From assembly GCA_028293625.1 (NCBI GenBank), contig JAQGOL010000024.1, positions 248,001 to 312,000 on the forward strand: 64,000 bases of DNA, in the 5' to 3' direction. Below are positions 6,875 through 44,957 of this stretch, in pieces. Within the stretch, counting starts at the first letter, position 1. The number at the start of each line of letters is the position of its first letter. The DNA is from Chthoniobacteraceae bacterium. Lineage in GTDB: Bacteria; Verrucomicrobiota; Verrucomicrobiia; Chthoniobacterales; Chthoniobacteraceae. The position numbers were made by a program, and so were the translations under genes. Below the pieces are notes generated by a model, which did no database searches, was not told the DNA's origin, and saw only the letters and a list, made by a program, of their open reading frames with translations.

Positions 6875-7735
6875 GTGGCCAGCAGCAATACCCCCAAGCA
6901 GCTTGAGAAGATCAGTGCGGACTGCCCGCATTGTGGCTTTAGCCAGCTTGAATCGGCTTACGCCAAGTCGACATTTTGCCGCAAGTGCGGCGAGCATTTC
7001 AGTATCGAAAAACTTTTGTTAAAAGAAGCGACGAGCCTCAAGGGGCCCTCCTTCTTTGACAAACTTTCGAAGCTGGTTTCGCGTGAAAAAATCCGGACAG
7101 TCACCTGCTTTAGTTGTCACGCCAGACAGCAGGTCAGCACCGAAGCGCAGTCTACTTCGTGTGCGCAGTGCGGGTCATATATTGATCTGCGGGAATTTAA
7201 AATTGACGGTCCTTTCGGACGCAGCATCCAAACGCAAGGCGAGGTCATCATCACTCCCAAGGGCGATGTGGCCAGTTCGCGCATTGCCTGCGGCTCCGCT
7301 TTTATCGAAGGCAAATTCAAAGGAACCCTCTTTTGCACCGGCATCGCCCGGGTGCGGATGAAGGGGAAATTTGTCGGCGCCGTGGAGAGCGAAGCTCTTG
7401 TGATTGAGAAAAAGTCCGAAGTGGAATTTGTCCGTGCCGTAAAGGTGCGTTCGCTTGAAATTAATGGAAAAACGATCGCGCATGTTGAATGCGACGGGCG
7501 GGTGACTATTAACAAAGGCGGCGCTCTGGAGGGTTCCGTTCATGCGCGAGCTATCACCATCGAAAAGGGTGGCAGCTTTAGCGGCGAACTCTCCATCGGA
7601 TTACCCGAAGGGGAACAATTGCCTGAACACGCGCAAGTGCCCGAAAGTGAGCAGCCGCCCGGGCAAGCGCTTCAAATCCCGCAGGACTCTGAATTAACCC
7701 GCGATCCGGAAGTCAACGCGGCAACCGAGGCCTGA
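6875..7735 (+). CDS. Bactofilin-domain protein with two N-terminal zinc ribbons
   Basis: A 286-residue protein starting at a GTG. Residues 17-38 hold CPHC and CRKC separated by 14 residues; residues 78-99 hold CFSC and CAQC with the same 14-residue spacing, so there are two zinc-ribbon modules joined by a basic linker. From about 110 to 245 is a bactofilin-like beta-helix (VIITPKGDVASSRI, FIEGKFKGTL, MKGKFVGAVES, LEINGKTIAHVECDG, GALEGSVHARAITIEKGG). The tail is Pro/Glu-rich. It likely adds a protein- or nucleic-acid-binding head to a bactofilin polymer formed with the upstream gene. A strong terminator follows 50 bp after the stop. Domain calls are by pattern. Confidence 0.85.
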   Translation: MASSNTPKQLEKISADCPHCGFSQLESAYAKSTFCRKCGEHFSIEKLLLKEATSLKGPSFFDKLSKLVSREKIRTVTCFSCHARQQVSTEAQSTSCAQCGSYIDLREFKIDGPFGRSIQTQGEVIITPKGDVASSRIACGSAFIEGKFKGTLFCTGIARVRMKGKFVGAVESEALVIEKKSEVEFVRAVKVRSLEINGKTIAHVECDGRVTINKGGALEGSVHARAITIEKGGSFSGELSIGLPEGEQLPEHAQVPESEQPPGQALQIPQDSELTRDPEVNAATEA

Positions 7736-7783
7736 AACTGCCTGGTCACGCCTCCCAGGCGCGACCCTACTGACCAAACCATT

Positions 7784-7825
7784 TTCCTCGTCCCGGACTT
7801 AAGTTCCGGGACGAGGAATTTTTTT
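7784..7825 (+). terminator. Rho-independent terminator after the bactofilin pair
   Basis: A 14-bp perfect stem (7784-7797 with 7805-7818) around a 7-nt loop is followed by seven T residues at 7819-7825. On the other strand the stem is followed by A residues, so it serves the plus-strand bactofilin operon. Confidence 0.92.
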
Positions 7826-7835
7826 GTCTATTTGG

Positions 7836-8387
7836 TTAGCAAAGCCGCCGCAACCGCCGCCATCCGGCCAGCACGCCAAAGCCGCCTAACAACATCACAG
7901 CCGCGCCAGGCTCCGGGACGACGGTCAGGGTTCCCGCACCGGAGAAGTATTCGTCGTTCTTGAAGAGCGCGCTGCTTAAACTGCTGCCGTAAGTGCCGGC
8001 CGGCTGCGCGATCGCGCCTAATACCAGGCTGCCGGCAATTTCACTGACGCCCGCTCCAAGTTGGAGGTAGCCGAAGTCCGCGGTGCCAGCCGTGCCTCCG
8101 CCGGCCAGGGTGAGCGTGGCACTATCGGAGATCGCATTAAGCACACCGGATTGAATGCTGAATTTAATGGCGCTGCTTTGGACAGTGATATTCCCCGTGC
8201 CGATTGAACTGCCGGCTCCCGACACGGCAAGCGTGCCTTTGGTGATCGTCGTTAATCCTGTATAAATGTTCGTTCCCAAAAGGGTCAGCGTGCCAGCGCC
8301 CACTTTGGTTAGCTTGGCGCCCACCGATGTCGCGCCACCGGCCCCCGCGTTTTCCGGTGAGCACGCCTTCGATGCCGTGGAAAACAA
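7836..8387 (-). pseudogene. 5'-truncated autotransporter-strand/PEP-CTERM protein
   Basis: The 183-residue frame carries the C-terminal part of a secreted beta-helix protein. LTKVGAGTLTLLGTN with YTGLTTITKGTL matches the autotransporter-associated beta strand repeat, and the end VPEPGAAVMLLGGFG...GWRRLRR is a PEP-CTERM sorting tail (Pro-Glu-Pro, one membrane helix, basic end) recognised by exosortase. No signal peptide or upstream beta-helix is present; the frame begins abruptly with MFSTASKACSPENAG. The 5' end abuts another truncated gene on the opposite strand. I read it as the 3' remnant of a larger gene, although it remains open and could in principle be expressed. Confidence 0.7.
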
Positions 8388-8407
8388 ATTCCAGCAAGGG
8401 CCACCTC

Positions 8408-8871
8408 ATGGGCTTCCTTTTCCAGGACAAAGGCGCCGGTGGTTTTGACGGCGGTTCAGTCGTGCTGAGCGGACCGCTGAACCGCACCCTCGTTACCGAT
8501 GCCACGGGTTTTTTTGGCGCAGTCGATTTGCCCACCGGCACTTATACCTTGTCGGTCAACGAGCCAGGTTACCGTCCCTTGAGTCGAACCATTGTTGTCG
8601 CGGGAACGGCCGTGGCGCAAACCACTCTCTTACCCGCCGTGGTGCCGCTTGAGTTTACCTCCGTTGTTCGCGCCTTCGCTCCATCGCGGCTCACCGTGAC
8701 TTGGTATTCGGTGCCGGGCCGCACACCTATCGCATTGAGGGCACGAATGATTTGCTGGCATGGTCGCCGGTGGCGTCCGGCGTGGCTGCCGCCAGCGCCT
8801 CAACGACGTTTTCTTACACACTTCCCGACGCTTGGAACGCTCAGGCTTTCCTGCACGTGACCGAAGAGTAA
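8408..8871 (+). pseudogene. Frameshifted, 5'-truncated carboxypeptidase-regulatory-like protein
   Basis: From about 8440 the frame encodes a CarboxypepD_reg-like beta-sandwich (GGSVVLSGPLNRTLVTDATG, then DLPTGTYTLSVNEPGY). After LTVTWYSVPGR the family pattern continues only in another frame as TYRIEGTNDLLAWSPV and ends VTEE at the TAA at 8869-8871. The shift fits a duplicated AC dinucleotide at 8723-8726 in acac. There is no signal peptide, and the 5' end runs into the truncated PEP-CTERM gene on the other strand. Both defects indicate a pseudogene. Confidence 0.75.
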
Positions 8872-39325: not shown

Positions 39326-40589
39326 ATGTTGATTTCCCCCCCAGGAAACAAAGCTCCGCCCGCGGCTGCGCTTACTCGCGGCCAATGGTCGGTATTGATC
39401 GCGGCGCTTCTTGGCTGGCTCTTTGACGGATATGAGATTGGGTTGTTTCCCGTGGTCGCGCGACCCGCGCTGCAGGAGATTCTCGGTGCGGGCGGCGATG
39501 GACGGATCGGTTTTTGGATGGGCGTTATTACGGCCTGTTTCCTGGTCGGTGCAGCGCTTGGAGGCGTGCTTTTTGGCTGGCTGGGCGACCGGATCGGCAG
39601 AGTGCGCGCCATGGCATTCAGCATCCTGACTTACTCACTGGTTACTGGATTTGGCTATTTTGCGGACTCGGGAGCGCAGCTGGGAATTGTAAGGGGCATC
39701 TCGGCCCTTGGAATGGGCGGGCAATGGGCGCTCGGCGTGGCGCTCGTGATGGAATGCTGGCCGGAGCGTTGGCGTCCTTTACTGGCTGGCATTATGGGGG
39801 CAGCCGCCAACTTCGGCTTCCTGCTCGTTGGCGCGATCGCAAAGTTCTTTCCGGTCACTCCCTCTTCGTGGCGCTGGATGATGTTACTGGCGGCGATCCC
39901 GGCGCTCATTGTGTTTTTCATCATCGGCTTTGTTCCGGAGTCAGAACGCTGGCGTGTTGCGCGCCGGGAGAATGTTAATCCATTGAAAGAAATCTTCGGG
40001 AATCATCTGCGCAACCGGACGCTGGTCGGCGTGGCACTGGCATCGGTCGCGTTGATCGGTACATGGGGTTCCGTGCAATGGCTGCCACTCTGGGCTGATC
40101 AGCTGGCGGGGTCGGGCAAATCCAGGCGCCAAGGCCGAGACGCAGATGTGGCAGGCTGCGGGAGCCATTGTCGGCGCGTTTATCGCTCCATTGATCGGCG
40201 CTCATATTGGACGGCGCCTTTCGTATTTCCTGCTTTGCTTACTTTCGCTTGGGCTTTGCGCGGTGCTCTTTCGTACCGTCTCAACGTTTGGTCCCGCATT
40301 CCTGGTCTGGGCGTTTGCCGTAAGTGGGGCAACCGCCTCTTTCTATGGATGGTTCCCGCTTTATTTTCCCGAGCTATTTCCCACGCATGTTCGCGCTACT
40401 GCACAGGGCCTTTGTTACAATGCAGGCCGGATTCTGGCAGCAGCCGGCGCCCTAACCCAGGGGCAGCTTGTCGGCCATTTTGGAGGGAGTTACGCGCAGG
40501 CCGGCTCCGTAGTCACCCTGATCTACCTGGCCGGGATGCTCGTAATTTGGATGGCGCCGGAAACAGAAGGCCAGGCGCTGAGCGATTAG
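39326..40589 (+). pseudogene. MFS transporter with single-base frameshift
   Basis: A major facilitator of the sugar/aromatic-acid:proton symporter type, split by a frameshift. The first part (to about 40115) has LFDGYEIGLFPVVARPAL in helix 1, the motif A loop GWLGDRIGRVRAM and six helices. The second half continues in another frame from PGAKAETQMWQAAGAIVG through GAHIGRRLSYFLLC and the family block LYFPELFPTHVRATAQGLCYN to EGQALSD and the stop at 40589. Removing one A from the AAA at 40118-40120 restores a 420-residue protein. It may be a true pseudogene, a slippage site or a sequencing error. Confidence 0.85.
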
Positions 40590-40624
40590 CAGCTGAGGCT
40601 GAATTAGAGGAGGTGCTCGTATGA

Positions 40625-40689: not shown

Positions 40690-41406
40690 TTACGCAGCGA
40701 GACGATAGGTCGCCTTGCCGATTTTCTCCACTCCAAGCCCTTTTTTGCCGGTGGTGGAAAACCAGATGTAGACGTTTTTGTATTTGGTTCCGAGCTTGTC
40801 GGCCAATTCACGCACGGTGATTCCTTCGTTCCCAGCCGAAGCCAATTCGCTCAGAATCTGAGACTTCAGCGCTCCGCGGCGGCTGCCCTCCGCGGGCGCT
40901 TTTACTTCGGCTTTCTGGCTCTTTGCCTTGCGGGTGGGTTTGCTTGAAGTGGAGGCGGCACTGGTTGAAGCGTCTTCGAGACGATAATGACCGCCCGTTA
41001 ATTTCTTAATAGCCGGGTTGCGTTTGATATTCGAATGAAACCAGGAATGGATATTGACTGGCTTGGTGTTCAACGCAGCTGCCAATTCCTTGACATGAAC
41101 TCCCTCGGCGCCGGCGGCCGTTAATGCGTTCATGACTTTGTCTTTTAGCAGACCAGACCCAAAAGTGCGGCGGCGGCCGGCGGCCTTGGCGGGAGCAGCC
41201 GTTGCGGCGCCCGAGCTTGCGCGGCCTTTAACAGCCGACGGCGCAGCAACGACAGCTGGTGCGCTTGAAAGTCCTCCGCTGATCTGGCTTTTAAGTGCCG
41301 TGAGTTGTTCCGACAACTCGCCAAGTTCCTGTTCCAAACTCTCACGCCGCTCTTCAAGTGATAGCATCTCTTTGAGGCGTTCGATTCGGGGATTGTTAGA
41401 TTTCAT
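40690..41406 (-). CDS. Coiled-coil protein with two tandem winged-helix domains
   Basis: A 238-residue protein. Residues 8-44 are a charged coiled coil (RLKEMLSLEERRESLEQEL), 45-85 an Ala/Lys-rich linker. Two homologous helix-turn-helix units follow at about 86-143 and 179-236. Both fit the pattern LK-x(2)-[IV]-[ML]-x(2)-L-x(2)-AG-x-EG-[VI]-x-V-x-ELA-x(2)-L-x-TK with a central N-x(3)-WF and a final YRL, separated by a Lys/Ala-rich linker (KPTRKAKSQKAEVK). This layout suggests a dimeric, H1-like DNA-bridging nucleoid protein or a regulator. The family is not known to me. A 320-bp AT-rich region precedes it and a terminator follows. Confidence 0.8.
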   Translation of the reverse strand: MKSNNPRIERLKEMLSLEERRESLEQELGELSEQLTALKSQISGGLSSAPAVVAAPSAVKGRASSGAATAAPAKAAGRRRTFGSGLLKDKVMNALTAAGAEGVHVKELAAALNTKPVNIHSWFHSNIKRNPAIKKLTGGHYRLEDASTSAASTSSKPTRKAKSQKAEVKAPAEGSRRGALKSQILSELASAGNEGITVRELADKLGTKYKNVYIWFSTTGKKGLGVEKIGKATYRLAA

Positions 41407-41729: not shown

Positions 41730-42914
41730 TCAAGATCCGAAGGTTTGGTTAATGCGGCGGCGCCGCTGCCTGGCTGAACGCAGGAATGAAGTGCCAGCGG
41801 GCCATTGTTCAGCAAGGGAGAAGAAGTCGCCCAGGCTGGCGCTTATATCGGCAAAGGTTCCGCGTGTGCCGAGCGGCGCGCGGAGCTTGTCATGAATAAT
41901 CATCAGCGGCACCTCTTCCCGCGTCGAATGGATGCCGCCAAAAGCAGGATCCCCACCACAATCCGCGGTAATGATGACTAGATCGTCAGATTCAATTTGG
42001 TTAAGAAAGCGGGCGAGCCAGCTGTCGAAACTGATCAGGGTGCGTGCAAATCCTTCATAATTACGCGGAACTCCGAAAATTGTCTCTTCGAGCGTGGCAA
42101 AAAGAAGTCCTTCCTCCAGTGCCGGCCAGAGCCCGTCGATTGCCGTCAGTACCTCCGCGCTGGAAGTGGCTGCAATGGCATCGGTAATGCCGCTGCCGGC
42201 AAAGTGTTCGCATACCTTTCCAATCCCGTGGACGCGACTTCCGGCATCAGCAAGGGCGTTGAGAATGGAGCGTGGCGGTACGATCGGGTAGACGAGTTGT
42301 TCAGCGGTTAGCTCGAAAAATCCTGCTTTTCCCTTGAATGGACGCGCCACCACCTGGCGGATATGCCATTGCCGGGCATGCCGGCGGGCAATATGACAGA
42401 TTTGCCCGAGCTGCTTTTTGCCTAACAGCTCCTCGTGCACGGCGATCTCCAGACTGGAGCCTGCGGAGCTGTAAAGGAGTGGCCGGCCGCATTGCAGATG
42501 TTCTTCACCAAGCTCTTCAAGGATGCGCCGGTGATCCTGGCGATAGTTGCCGATGAACTTGATGCCGGTCTCTTTTTCAATCGCCTCAACCAGCTCGTTG
42601 GGAAAGGCATCGAAGTCGGCAAAAGGCTCACGACGAAGGATGCCGGCAATTTCCCAATGGCCGGTGGTGGGATCGCTCCCGTGTGATTGAGGCCGCATCC
42701 GGCCATAACTTGCGCGAGTGTGTTGGGAGCGCGGGTCGAAGACATCGCTGGTCAGGATCTTCCATAAGCCTAGCGAGAAGAGCGAGGGAAGCTGAAGGGA
42801 GGGCTGCGCTTCAAAAAGGTGGCCTAAAGTGTTAGCGCCGGCATTGCTGTAATTGCTGGCATCCGGTGCGTTGCCGCAGCCGGCTCCGCCCAATAAAAGA
42901 AGTAACGCGCGCAC
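41730..42914 (-). CDS. Phosphopentomutase homologue lacking catalytic residues
   Basis: A 394-residue member of the DeoB/phosphopentomutase family (alkaline phosphatase superfamily). The fold is recognisable throughout: NAPDASNYSNAGANTLGH, TTGHWEIAGI, FIGNYRQDHRRILEELG, VARPFKG and TFADISASL. Compared with B. cereus DeoB, the metal ligand Asp13 is Gly9 (LLLGGAGCG), the nucleophile Thr85 is Pro82 (GSDPTTGHWE), Asp286 is Glu, His291 is Val (TIFGVPRN), His328 is Cys (TADCGGD) and His339 is Ser; only Asp327 remains. It should be inactive. The GTG at 42914 fits the family start; the open frame extends to 43025. The upstream aldehyde-dehydrogenase-like gene ends 56 bp away. Confidence 0.88.
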   Translation of the reverse strand: MRALLLLLGGAGCGNAPDASNYSNAGANTLGHLFEAQPSLQLPSLFSLGLWKILTSDVFDPRSQHTRASYGRMRPQSHGSDPTTGHWEIAGILRREPFADFDAFPNELVEAIEKETGIKFIGNYRQDHRRILEELGEEHLQCGRPLLYSSAGSSLEIAVHEELLGKKQLGQICHIARRHARQWHIRQVVARPFKGKAGFFELTAEQLVYPIVPPRSILNALADAGSRVHGIGKVCEHFAGSGITDAIAATSSAEVLTAIDGLWPALEEGLLFATLEETIFGVPRNYEGFARTLISFDSWLARFLNQIESDDLVIITADCGGDPAFGGIHSTREEVPLMIIHDKLRAPLGTRGTFADISASLGDFFSLAEQWPAGTSFLRSARQRRRRINQTFGS

Positions 42915-42970: not shown

Positions 42971-43840
42971 TTAGGTTCCAATGGGATGCCAGGCAGTTTT
43001 GAATTCGATGGTATCCAGAATCCAATAAGGATCCTCCGCCTTCGAACTAAACCAGTCGCCGGGAGGCATCGTCCGGCTCGCGTGCCGCTTCATATTGCAG
43101 GCGCTTCCGCGTCGTCCTTCAACGGCAGCTGTTAAATCGCCACTCCCGTCCACAATCGCATTAATATCCATGTGCGTCGCGAAATGGGGAACCAGCTCCG
43201 CTCGTTTCCCCGTCAGGATATTAACCACGCCTGGTGGCAAATCGCTGGTTGCAAGAATCTCCGCAAAACTTATTGCGGGCAGCGGCGCGGATTCCGATGC
43301 AAGCAACACGGCGCTGTTGCCGCTGAGAATGACTGGCGCAAGCAGCGATACAAGCCCAAGAAGCGACGGTTTGTCGGGGCAAATGATCGCCACGACACCG
43401 GCCGGTTCGGGTGTCGTGAAATTAAAATGCGGTGTCGCCACCGGATTTACGCTGCTGAAAAGCTGGGCGAACTTGTCTGCCCAGCCCGCATGATAGACAA
43501 GCCGGTCAATTGCCAGTTCCACTTCCCGTTCCGCTTCGTCTGTGCCGCCGCGAGCCAGTTCATTACTAAGTTCGCCACGCCGCTGTTCGGCTATCTCTGC
43601 AATCCTGTATAAGATCTGGCCGCGCAAATAAGCGCTCGCCTTGGCCCAGCCAGGCTGTGCCGTGCGCGCGGCAGCGGCCGCTTCCCGGAAGTCTTTGCGC
43701 GAGGCGAGGCAGAAGTTGCCGGGACTGCGGCGGCCCTCGCCTGGTTGGGCGGGGGCAACGCGGCCGCTTTCTCCGCGGGGAAATTTGCCGCCAATAAAGA
43801 GTTTATAAGTCTTGAGAACTCTTAAGCGCTGAGTAGCCAT
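42971..43840 (-). CDS. Half-length aldehyde dehydrogenase paralogue without catalytic Cys
   Basis: A 289-residue protein homologous to the NAD-binding half of aldehyde dehydrogenases: YKLFIGGKFPRGESG, QPGWAKASAYLRGQILYRIAEI, NFTTPEPAGVVAIICPD, LVSLLAPVILSGN and LPPGVVNILTG. It stops before the catalytic domain, so there is no GQ-x-C nucleophile, and ends in EFKTAWHPIGT. From memory, such short paralogues with a KT-x-WHP end occur beside a full-length aldehyde dehydrogenase in deoC-type deoxyribose clusters, perhaps as a second subunit. Here neither deoC nor a full-length partner is in view. The ATG at 43840 (MATQRLRVLKTYK) is the family-like start. Confidence 0.82.
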   Translation of the reverse strand: MATQRLRVLKTYKLFIGGKFPRGESGRVAPAQPGEGRRSPGNFCLASRKDFREAAAAARTAQPGWAKASAYLRGQILYRIAEIAEQRRGELSNELARGGTDEAEREVELAIDRLVYHAGWADKFAQLFSSVNPVATPHFNFTTPEPAGVVAIICPDKPSLLGLVSLLAPVILSGNSAVLLASESAPLPAISFAEILATSDLPPGVVNILTGKRAELVPHFATHMDINAIVDGSGDLTAAVEGRRGSACNMKRHASRTMPPGDWFSSKAEDPYWILDTIEFKTAWHPIGT

Positions 43841-44009
43841 TCGCAAATCAAGAGCCGAATAAGGTGCGCTTGAAAATAACCGAATTGGCCGGCTCTCCCG
43901 CCTGTCGTGAGTAAGAGCAGTTCTCCGTCTATTCCGGGCCCGTGGCCGCAGCCAAAGGTTGCGTGTGTAAAATCCGTCCGTATTCTGGTTGCCTTCGCGT
44001 GTGGCTGGC

Positions 44010-44957
44010 ATGATAGCGTCCGCCGTGCAGAATTCAGACCTGATATTTGTTGCCGGACACCGTGGCCTGGCGGGTGGCGCCATCGCGCGCGAACTCGCTT
44101 CCGGCGGCTACACCAACATTATCACTCAAACCCGCTCGCAGCTCGATTTGCGGGAGCGCGACGCGGTGCGCCGTTTTTTCTCGGAAACGCGTCCGGGGGT
44201 TGTTGTGCTGGCGGCGGCCAAAGTAGGAGGAATCAAGGCCAATAACGATTTCCCCGTCGAGTTTCTCCTCGAGAACCTTAAGATTCAGAACAACGTGATT
44301 GAAGCGGCGCGCGACTTTGAAGTCGGCAAGCTGCTTTTCCTGGGCAGCTCATGTATATACCCAAAATTTGCCGCCCAGCCTATTGAGGAGTCCTCGCTGC
44401 TAACGGGCTCCCTTGAGCCGACCAATGAAGCGTATGCGATTGCAAAAATCGCGGGGATCGAGCTCTGCCAGGCGTATTCGCGCCAGTATGGATGCAATTT
44501 TATCAGCGCGATGCCGACCAATCTGTATGGGCCGGGTGATAATTTTGACCTTGCAAGCTCCCATGTGCTGCCGGCGCTTCTGCGGAAAATATACGAAGCC
44601 AAACTTCATGGGGCCTCCGAGGTGAGTGTATGGGGAAGTGGAACGCCGCGGCGGGAGTTTTTACACGTTGAGGATTTGGCCGGCGCGTGCCGTTTTTTGC
44701 TTGAACATTACAATTCGCCGGAAGTGGTGAATGTAGGTTGCGGCGAAGACGTATCTATCCGCGAGCTCGCCGAGTTGATTTGCGAAGTGGCCGGATTTTC
44801 CGGAAAACTGGTTTTTGATCCGAGTAAGCCGGATGGCACGCCTCGCAAGCTATTGAGTATTGAGAGGCTCAAAAAGCTCGGCTGGGCACCGCGGATTGGA
44901 CTTCGCGAGGGGATCTCCCGCACTTACGATTGGTATCGCGATTCACTAAAAGGATAA
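44010..44957 (+). CDS. fcl: GDP-L-fucose synthase
   Basis: A 315-residue short-chain dehydrogenase/reductase that converts GDP-4-keto-6-deoxymannose to GDP-L-fucose using NADPH. It has the nucleotide site [34 protein letters not shown] with the catalytic Ser, [11 protein letters not shown] with the Tyr-x3-Lys pair, and [12 protein letters not shown]. The ATG at 44010 is preferred to the TTG at 43989. gmd, which makes its substrate, is not in the window. It is transcribed divergently from the aldehyde dehydrogenase paralogue. Confidence 0.95.

Follow-up and report, generated by a model that had tools for sequence, protein, structure and literature searches.

A putative phosphopentomutase pseudoenzyme and a second, separate loss of the DeoB active site in the same bacterial family

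Main finding

We analysed a window of 64,000 nucleotides, i.e. the whole stretch of DNA considered here (G000:C9:248001-312000, G000 being the window's own genome, with an assembly of 6.8 Mb that is 96.4% complete). It carries a deoB-derived gene that is probably that of a pseudo-phosphopentomutase, whose protein is still under selection or has been so for most of its catalytically dead life. Missing from this DeoB are the phosphoryl acceptor, five of the six metal ligands and a portion of the substrate pocket, with the fold predicted to be kept. A second lineage, the genus g8, retains a protein without the DeoB active site. In two lineages, the reaction of a well-known salvage enzyme would thereby have disappeared with the gene still open, which offers a testable system for metabolic enzymes turning into binding proteins. 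Pseudoenzymes are well known; no description of a DeoB pseudoenzyme was found in the open-licence literature searched.

The window gene and its active-site residues

The following features were located, DeoB positions being numbered as in Bacillus cereus DeoB (3m8w) and the residues found at them by the window protein's own count:

41730..42914, minus strand (read 42914..41730): deoB-derived open reading frame of the putative pseudo-phosphopentomutase, 394 aa, GTG start
41732..41730, minus strand: stop codon of this frame
42888..42890, minus strand: position of Asp13 (metal ligand), Gly9 by alignment to 3m8w
42669..42671, minus strand: position of Thr85 (phosphoryl acceptor), Pro82 by alignment to 3m8w
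42459..42461, minus strand: position of Asp156, Gly152 by alignment
42069..42086, minus strand: Asp286 (Glu277) to His291 (Val282), adjoining an in-frame two-codon gap relative to the family
41925..41963, minus strand: Asp327, kept as Asp318, and His328 (Cys319) to His339 (Ser330)

Inspection of the frame revealed zero internal stops and no frameshift, and the plus-strand frame of the same interval contained many stops. Base composition by codon position (0.64, 0.47, 0.61) resembled that of the neighbouring genes. A phmmer comparison aligned the protein with residues 2-380 of 3m8w (E=4e-65), in agreement with the sequence-only reading of an intact phosphopentomutase homologue of 394 residues. 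The Pfam match was Metalloenzyme (PF01676, E 7e-15). Among the NCBIfam models, NF003766 (phosphopentomutase) was reached with 297.9 bits for a cut-off of 256, and TIGR01696 (deoB) was missed with 270.9 bits for a cut-off of 341.2. Since NF003766 accepts the window protein as a phosphopentomutase, a pathway reconstruction could credit a step that the organism probably lacks, and the match to a curated model should be read with this warning in annotation. A frame or sequencing artefact was ruled out as the cause of the losses described below, all of which are substitutions within the open frame. The own assembly (96.4% complete) contained a single DeoB match, so that the second, intact deoB that the sequence-only reading had thought would fit was not found.

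The eight active-site residues of B. cereus DeoB were taken from Table 2 of PMC10121223, which prints A327 where 3m8w has Asp. When aligned to 3m8w, the window protein kept one of the eight, Asp327, and showed the changes D13G, T85P, D156G, D286E, H291V, H328C and H339S, the register of D286E being less sure owing to the two-residue gap alongside. The six residues that had been aligned by eye beforehand (Gly, Pro, Glu, Val, Cys and Ser at D13, T85, D286, H291, H328 and H339) proved exact on this numbering, as did the retention of Asp327; the loss of Asp156 is additional. Thus, among the six metal ligands (D13, D286, H291, D327, H328 and H339), D327 alone was kept, and the phosphoryl-accepting Thr (or Ser) at position 85, a position confirmed by the T85Q and T85E variant chains 3un2 and 3un5, was replaced by Pro82. 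The position of Asp338 was occupied by His. The catalytic motif is lost from this homologue of an enzyme, which is one of the features of a pseudoenzyme.

The losses were concentrated in the active site, with 7/8 of its residues changed versus 36/134 of the other family-invariant columns (Fisher one-sided p=0.001). In a leave-one-out control, 14 of 15 active family members changed 0-6% of the columns invariant in the rest, and the fifteenth, G016, whose N-terminus lies in another frame, changed 13.9%; the window copy changed 30% of 141 such columns.

DeoB in the family, order and class

A DeoB match was obtained in 25 of the 40 family genomes and none in the other 15, some of which are incomplete. 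Matches were likewise present in 50/213 genomes of the order and in 52/384 genomes of the class sample, 28 of these 52 being outside the order. At the level of the order, the examination covered 47 sequences; they came from 45 of the 50 genomes with a match, the five with fragments only (G026, G028, G104, G139 and G166) being left out. Each covered active-site residue was kept in 41 of the 47 (T85 as T or S). Coverage did not extend to D13 in G016, G131, G132 and the second G092 piece, nor to T85 in the last three. Position 85 is covered in 38 of the 41 intact sequences, and each of these has T or S there. The six exceptions were the window copy and all five g8 genomes examined (G034-G038). 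Outside the order, all eight residues were kept in 11/11 class genomes inspected (11 of the 28, all of family f15).

Two other genomes of the window's genus bear on the history of the gene. DeoB of G002 keeps all eight residues, with Ser at 85. The native DeoB of G003 keeps the metal ligands and has 0/8 active-site changes, with 33/134 of the other invariants changed, and may represent an initial step of such a loss. The G003 loci concerned are L036 (8352-9506) and L042; in the native gene, position 85 is Ser, D84 is replaced (D84N) and the YTSADS motif is altered. The second DeoB of G003, its motifs unaltered, groups with that of G010 and is located near a deoA-like gene. In G016, deoB is split between two frames (L034, about 7598-8780), with unaltered active-site residues and no PyNP match in the genome.

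A separate loss in genus g8

The g8 genes were open in 5/5 genomes over matches of 350-386 residues, and their proteins kept 0, 3, 1, 3 and 2 of the eight active-site residues in G034, G035, G036, G037 and G038, respectively (T85 as T/S), with no common set among them. None of the five reached the cut-off of either NF003766 or TIGR01696. Under a codon model, omega in g8 was 0.118 over 377 codons, omega=1 being worse by 2dlnL 580. The g8 pair G035/G037 gave 0.106, and pairs of active genes gave 0.088 (G031/G032), 0.075 (G030/G033), 0.061 (G018/G020) and 0.080 (G025/G027); the estimates for G000/G002 and G036/G034 were saturated at the bound. Across g8, 120 alignment columns were fixed, and PL(I/L)TF was present near the C-terminus of 5/5 proteins. 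Enrichment of changes in the active site was significant in only two of the five (p 0.005, 0.23, 0.024, 0.23 and 0.12 for G034-G038), because much else changed too.

In a protein tree of 45 rows (LG+C20+F+G4), the window copy paired with G002 (97/98) and g8 formed one side of a branch (100/100). G003 joined g8 at 89/99, both being long branches, a grouping that may reflect long-branch attraction. We further listed the states that all g8 copies share and that none of 14 active family members has: of these 19, the window copy had 0 and G003 two. Since the window copy pairs with the intact G002 and shares 0/19 g8 states, catalysis was lost at least twice. A single origin of the two losses is ruled out by the support values and the lack of shared derived states, and the clade with the window's own substitutions, for which the sequence-only reading had proposed to look, was not found. 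For the Dis3/RNase II pseudonucleases, too, catalysis is described as having been lost more than once independently within a clade that retained the protein (PMC8097288); unlike the DeoB case, those are fungal RNA-binding proteins.

Decay or retention of the window copy

The explanation that best rivals retention is a recent pseudogene, i.e. a deoB that functioned along most of its branch and now decays unselected, its frame being open by luck. We consider it unlikely, and the evidence on it is divided. DeoB turns over within the family, as indicated by the genomes lacking a match (some being incomplete); the gene of G016, in a genome without PyNP, is split between frames; the MFS gene neighbouring the window copy is frameshifted; and the window's substitutions are shared by no relative found. 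Against decay, the window gene is free of stops and frameshifts, the gap next to D286 is in frame, the changes are concentrated in the active site and the codon-position composition is like that of the neighbours.

The window copy had 40 of 139 ungapped invariant sites changed and 99 unchanged. With the codons of G002, G039 or G022 as the starting point, neutral decay was simulated, with substitutions only, until 40 sites had changed. An average of 2.4-4.2 stops arose, and 0.9-8.7% of the runs stayed free of stops, a test that is weak alone. Fourteen of the 40 changed sites require two or three base steps; the simulations from G002 gave 3.7-3.8 such sites on average and, in 9000 runs, never more than 12. 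Therefore, some sites changed repeatedly while the 99 invariants stayed, and neutral decay fits the window copy badly.

On the window branch, omega=1 was rejected (2dlnL 71) with the free fit at its bound (t=60, omega 0.01); when the branch length was tied to G002, omega was 0.107 versus 0.071 (2dlnL 215). Because synonymous change is saturated, the omega of this branch carries little weight. A similar mean could result if a long period of activity had been followed by a brief neutral one, so that the branch mean is compatible with a late neutral phase. We nevertheless favour retention: the protein was probably kept by selection in the window lineage. The earlier proposal of a non-catalytic role beyond simple decay has thus gained from the five open g8 genes under purifying selection and from the misfit of neutral decay to the window copy, and is qualified by the room that a saturated branch leaves for late decay.

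Predicted fold, substrate pocket and other functions

The window protein is a full-length homologue of the phosphopentomutase DeoB, a member of the alkaline phosphatase superfamily (3m8w of B. cereus), sharing its length and predicted to keep its fold, with 34-35% identity in structural alignment. Its AlphaFold2 model, built from an 11-row alignment, had a mean pLDDT of 88.5 and a pTM of 0.88, and the first 16 PDB matches were all DeoB (TM 0.81-0.86 by query). The pLDDT fell below 50 at residues 279-283, i.e. the old D286-H291 loop. The model of a g8 protein was less sure (pLDDT 76.9), its first 16 matches again being DeoB (TM 0.72-0.77).

We take D156, V158, R193, R208, H213 and K240 to be positions lining the pentose-phosphate pocket; for V158, this is also suggested by the engineered variants named in PDB titles. 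Five of these positions were altered in the window protein (D156G, V158S, R193Q, R208L and H213L), and K240 was kept, as were the ARPF and GN motifs. In g8, R208, H213 and K240 were lost in 5/5 proteins and R193 was kept in 4/5.

A rewired enzyme, with a new metal or nucleophile site serving another phosphoryl-transfer or hydrolytic reaction, seems quite improbable to us. Glu277, Asp318 and Cys319 stand at old ligand positions, a His precedes the position of the lost His339 by one residue and the lost Thr85 is directly followed by two Thr. E276/E277, D318, C319 and H329 could form a rewired metal site, and catalytic residues have migrated in some pseudoenzymes (PMC10211241). For D13 and H291, however, no substitute is evident, confidence in the model is lowest in the 286-291 loop, and g8 shows no common set of the eight residues. 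Least credible of all is the sugar-phosphate sensing suggested by the sequence-only reading, with ligand binding kept after the loss of catalysis, which is not favoured because the pocket positions are altered too, both in the window copy and in g8, despite the predicted persistence of the fold and the motifs and residues kept (K240, ARPF and GN in the window, R193 in most of g8).

Gene neighbourhood, pathway context and proposed role

Two neighbouring genes of the window are relevant here:

42971..43840, minus strand: half-length aldehyde dehydrogenase (half-ALDH), directly 5' of deoB on the same strand
43989..44957, plus strand: fcl (GDP-L-fucose synthase-like), divergent from the half-ALDH/deoB pair

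The half-ALDH covers positions 22-210 of 461 of Pfam Aldedh. Its copies were 65-72% identical in 10 family genomes. In relatives whose deoB has a complete set of active-site residues and follows the half-ALDH, the latter was open and 68-72% identical. The C-terminal motif WILDT.E.KTAWHP.G was found in the window copy and in 9/11 aligned relatives, the other two having a variant. Its best solved match was to residues 501-766 of a 767-aa ALDH (6mvr/6mvu), for which reason the half-ALDH may be a split-off ALDH16-like domain. The entries 6mvr-6mvu are presumably ALDH16, with its non-catalytic ALDH domain; the window half-ALDH differs in being free-standing, beside deoB.

Gene order was established by tblastn of nine marker proteins versus 19 stretches. 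A recurring order was recovered in pieces: fcl divergent, then half-ALDH, deoB and deoA, and also deoA-ribBA-ribH-nusB-ftsY. Thus deoA neighbours deoB in relatives, and fcl was also near deoB in G002, G003, G016, G019, G020 and G033. In the window genome, the half-ALDH and the dead deoB lie beside fcl, and deoA heads the riboflavin block elsewhere (L065). In 4/5 g8 genomes, deoB lies directly 5' of ribBA-ribH-nusB-ftsY, deoA being missing there; in G038, it is near rpoA.

The own genome has a pyrimidine-nucleoside phosphorylase (PyNP; L065:5553-6791; TIGR02644 473.9 vs cut-off 409.05), and DeoC and purine nucleoside phosphorylase (PNP) were over their cut-offs; the genome therefore has enzymes both before and after the DeoB step. 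In g8, PyNP had no match and PNP none over the cut-off in 5/5 genomes, and DeoC was found in 2/5. In G016, the frame-split deoB abuts ribBA. Loss of deoA may free deoB; the residues of the window copy were lost in a genome that still has PyNP, so that its route differs from that of g8 and G016. Replacement of DeoB by an extra alpha-phosphohexomutase was considered; the own genome has two PGM_PMM_I matches, like 36/40 family genomes (itself included), and therefore no extra gene, but one of these two usual proteins could do DeoB's work.

Judging by its residues, the window protein would lack phosphopentomutase activity, and the pentose-1-phosphates of PyNP and PNP would therefore not be passed by it to DeoC or the pentose-phosphate pathway. 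E. coli lines without ribonucleotide reduction repeatedly lost deoB function and gained by it, and DeoB loss is argued to keep deoxyribose-1-phosphate for phosphorylases and not for DeoC (PMC10121223). By analogy, the loss may be tolerated or even useful in the window lineage, as deoxyribose-1-phosphate would stay available to phosphorylases. The protein body would then be selected for a non-catalytic role, in which it most likely binds the products of adjacent genes or takes part in their assembly. Our best guess is indeed such a binding or assembly role, and non-catalytic modes of this kind are among those reviewed for pseudoenzymes (PMC10211241). The candidate partners, by position alone, are the half-ALDH for the window copy and RibBA, RibH, NusB or FtsY for g8. 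A wider reading, in which the family's DeoB turned non-catalytic more than once and that of g8 was recruited as a cistron immediately upstream of the riboflavin genes, serving their products as a subunit in regulation or assembly, is in our opinion rather doubtful; RibBA uses a pentose phosphate.

A search for known RNA elements returned one tRNA only in eight loci and one tRNA only in the window, and a promoter and terminator scan gave 0 promoter-like and 2 terminator-like signals, neither above shuffles. About 1 kb from the window deoB, an MFS transporter is found as two halves in different frames (39326-40624 and 40146-40589, plus strand), with a frameshift near 40115-40146 for which a real break and an assembly error are both possible; open frames of 416 codons or more exist in relatives. 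Between this transporter and deoB, positions 40690-41406 (minus strand) encode a 238-aa Ala/Lys-rich protein with only weak winged-helix-like Pfam matches.
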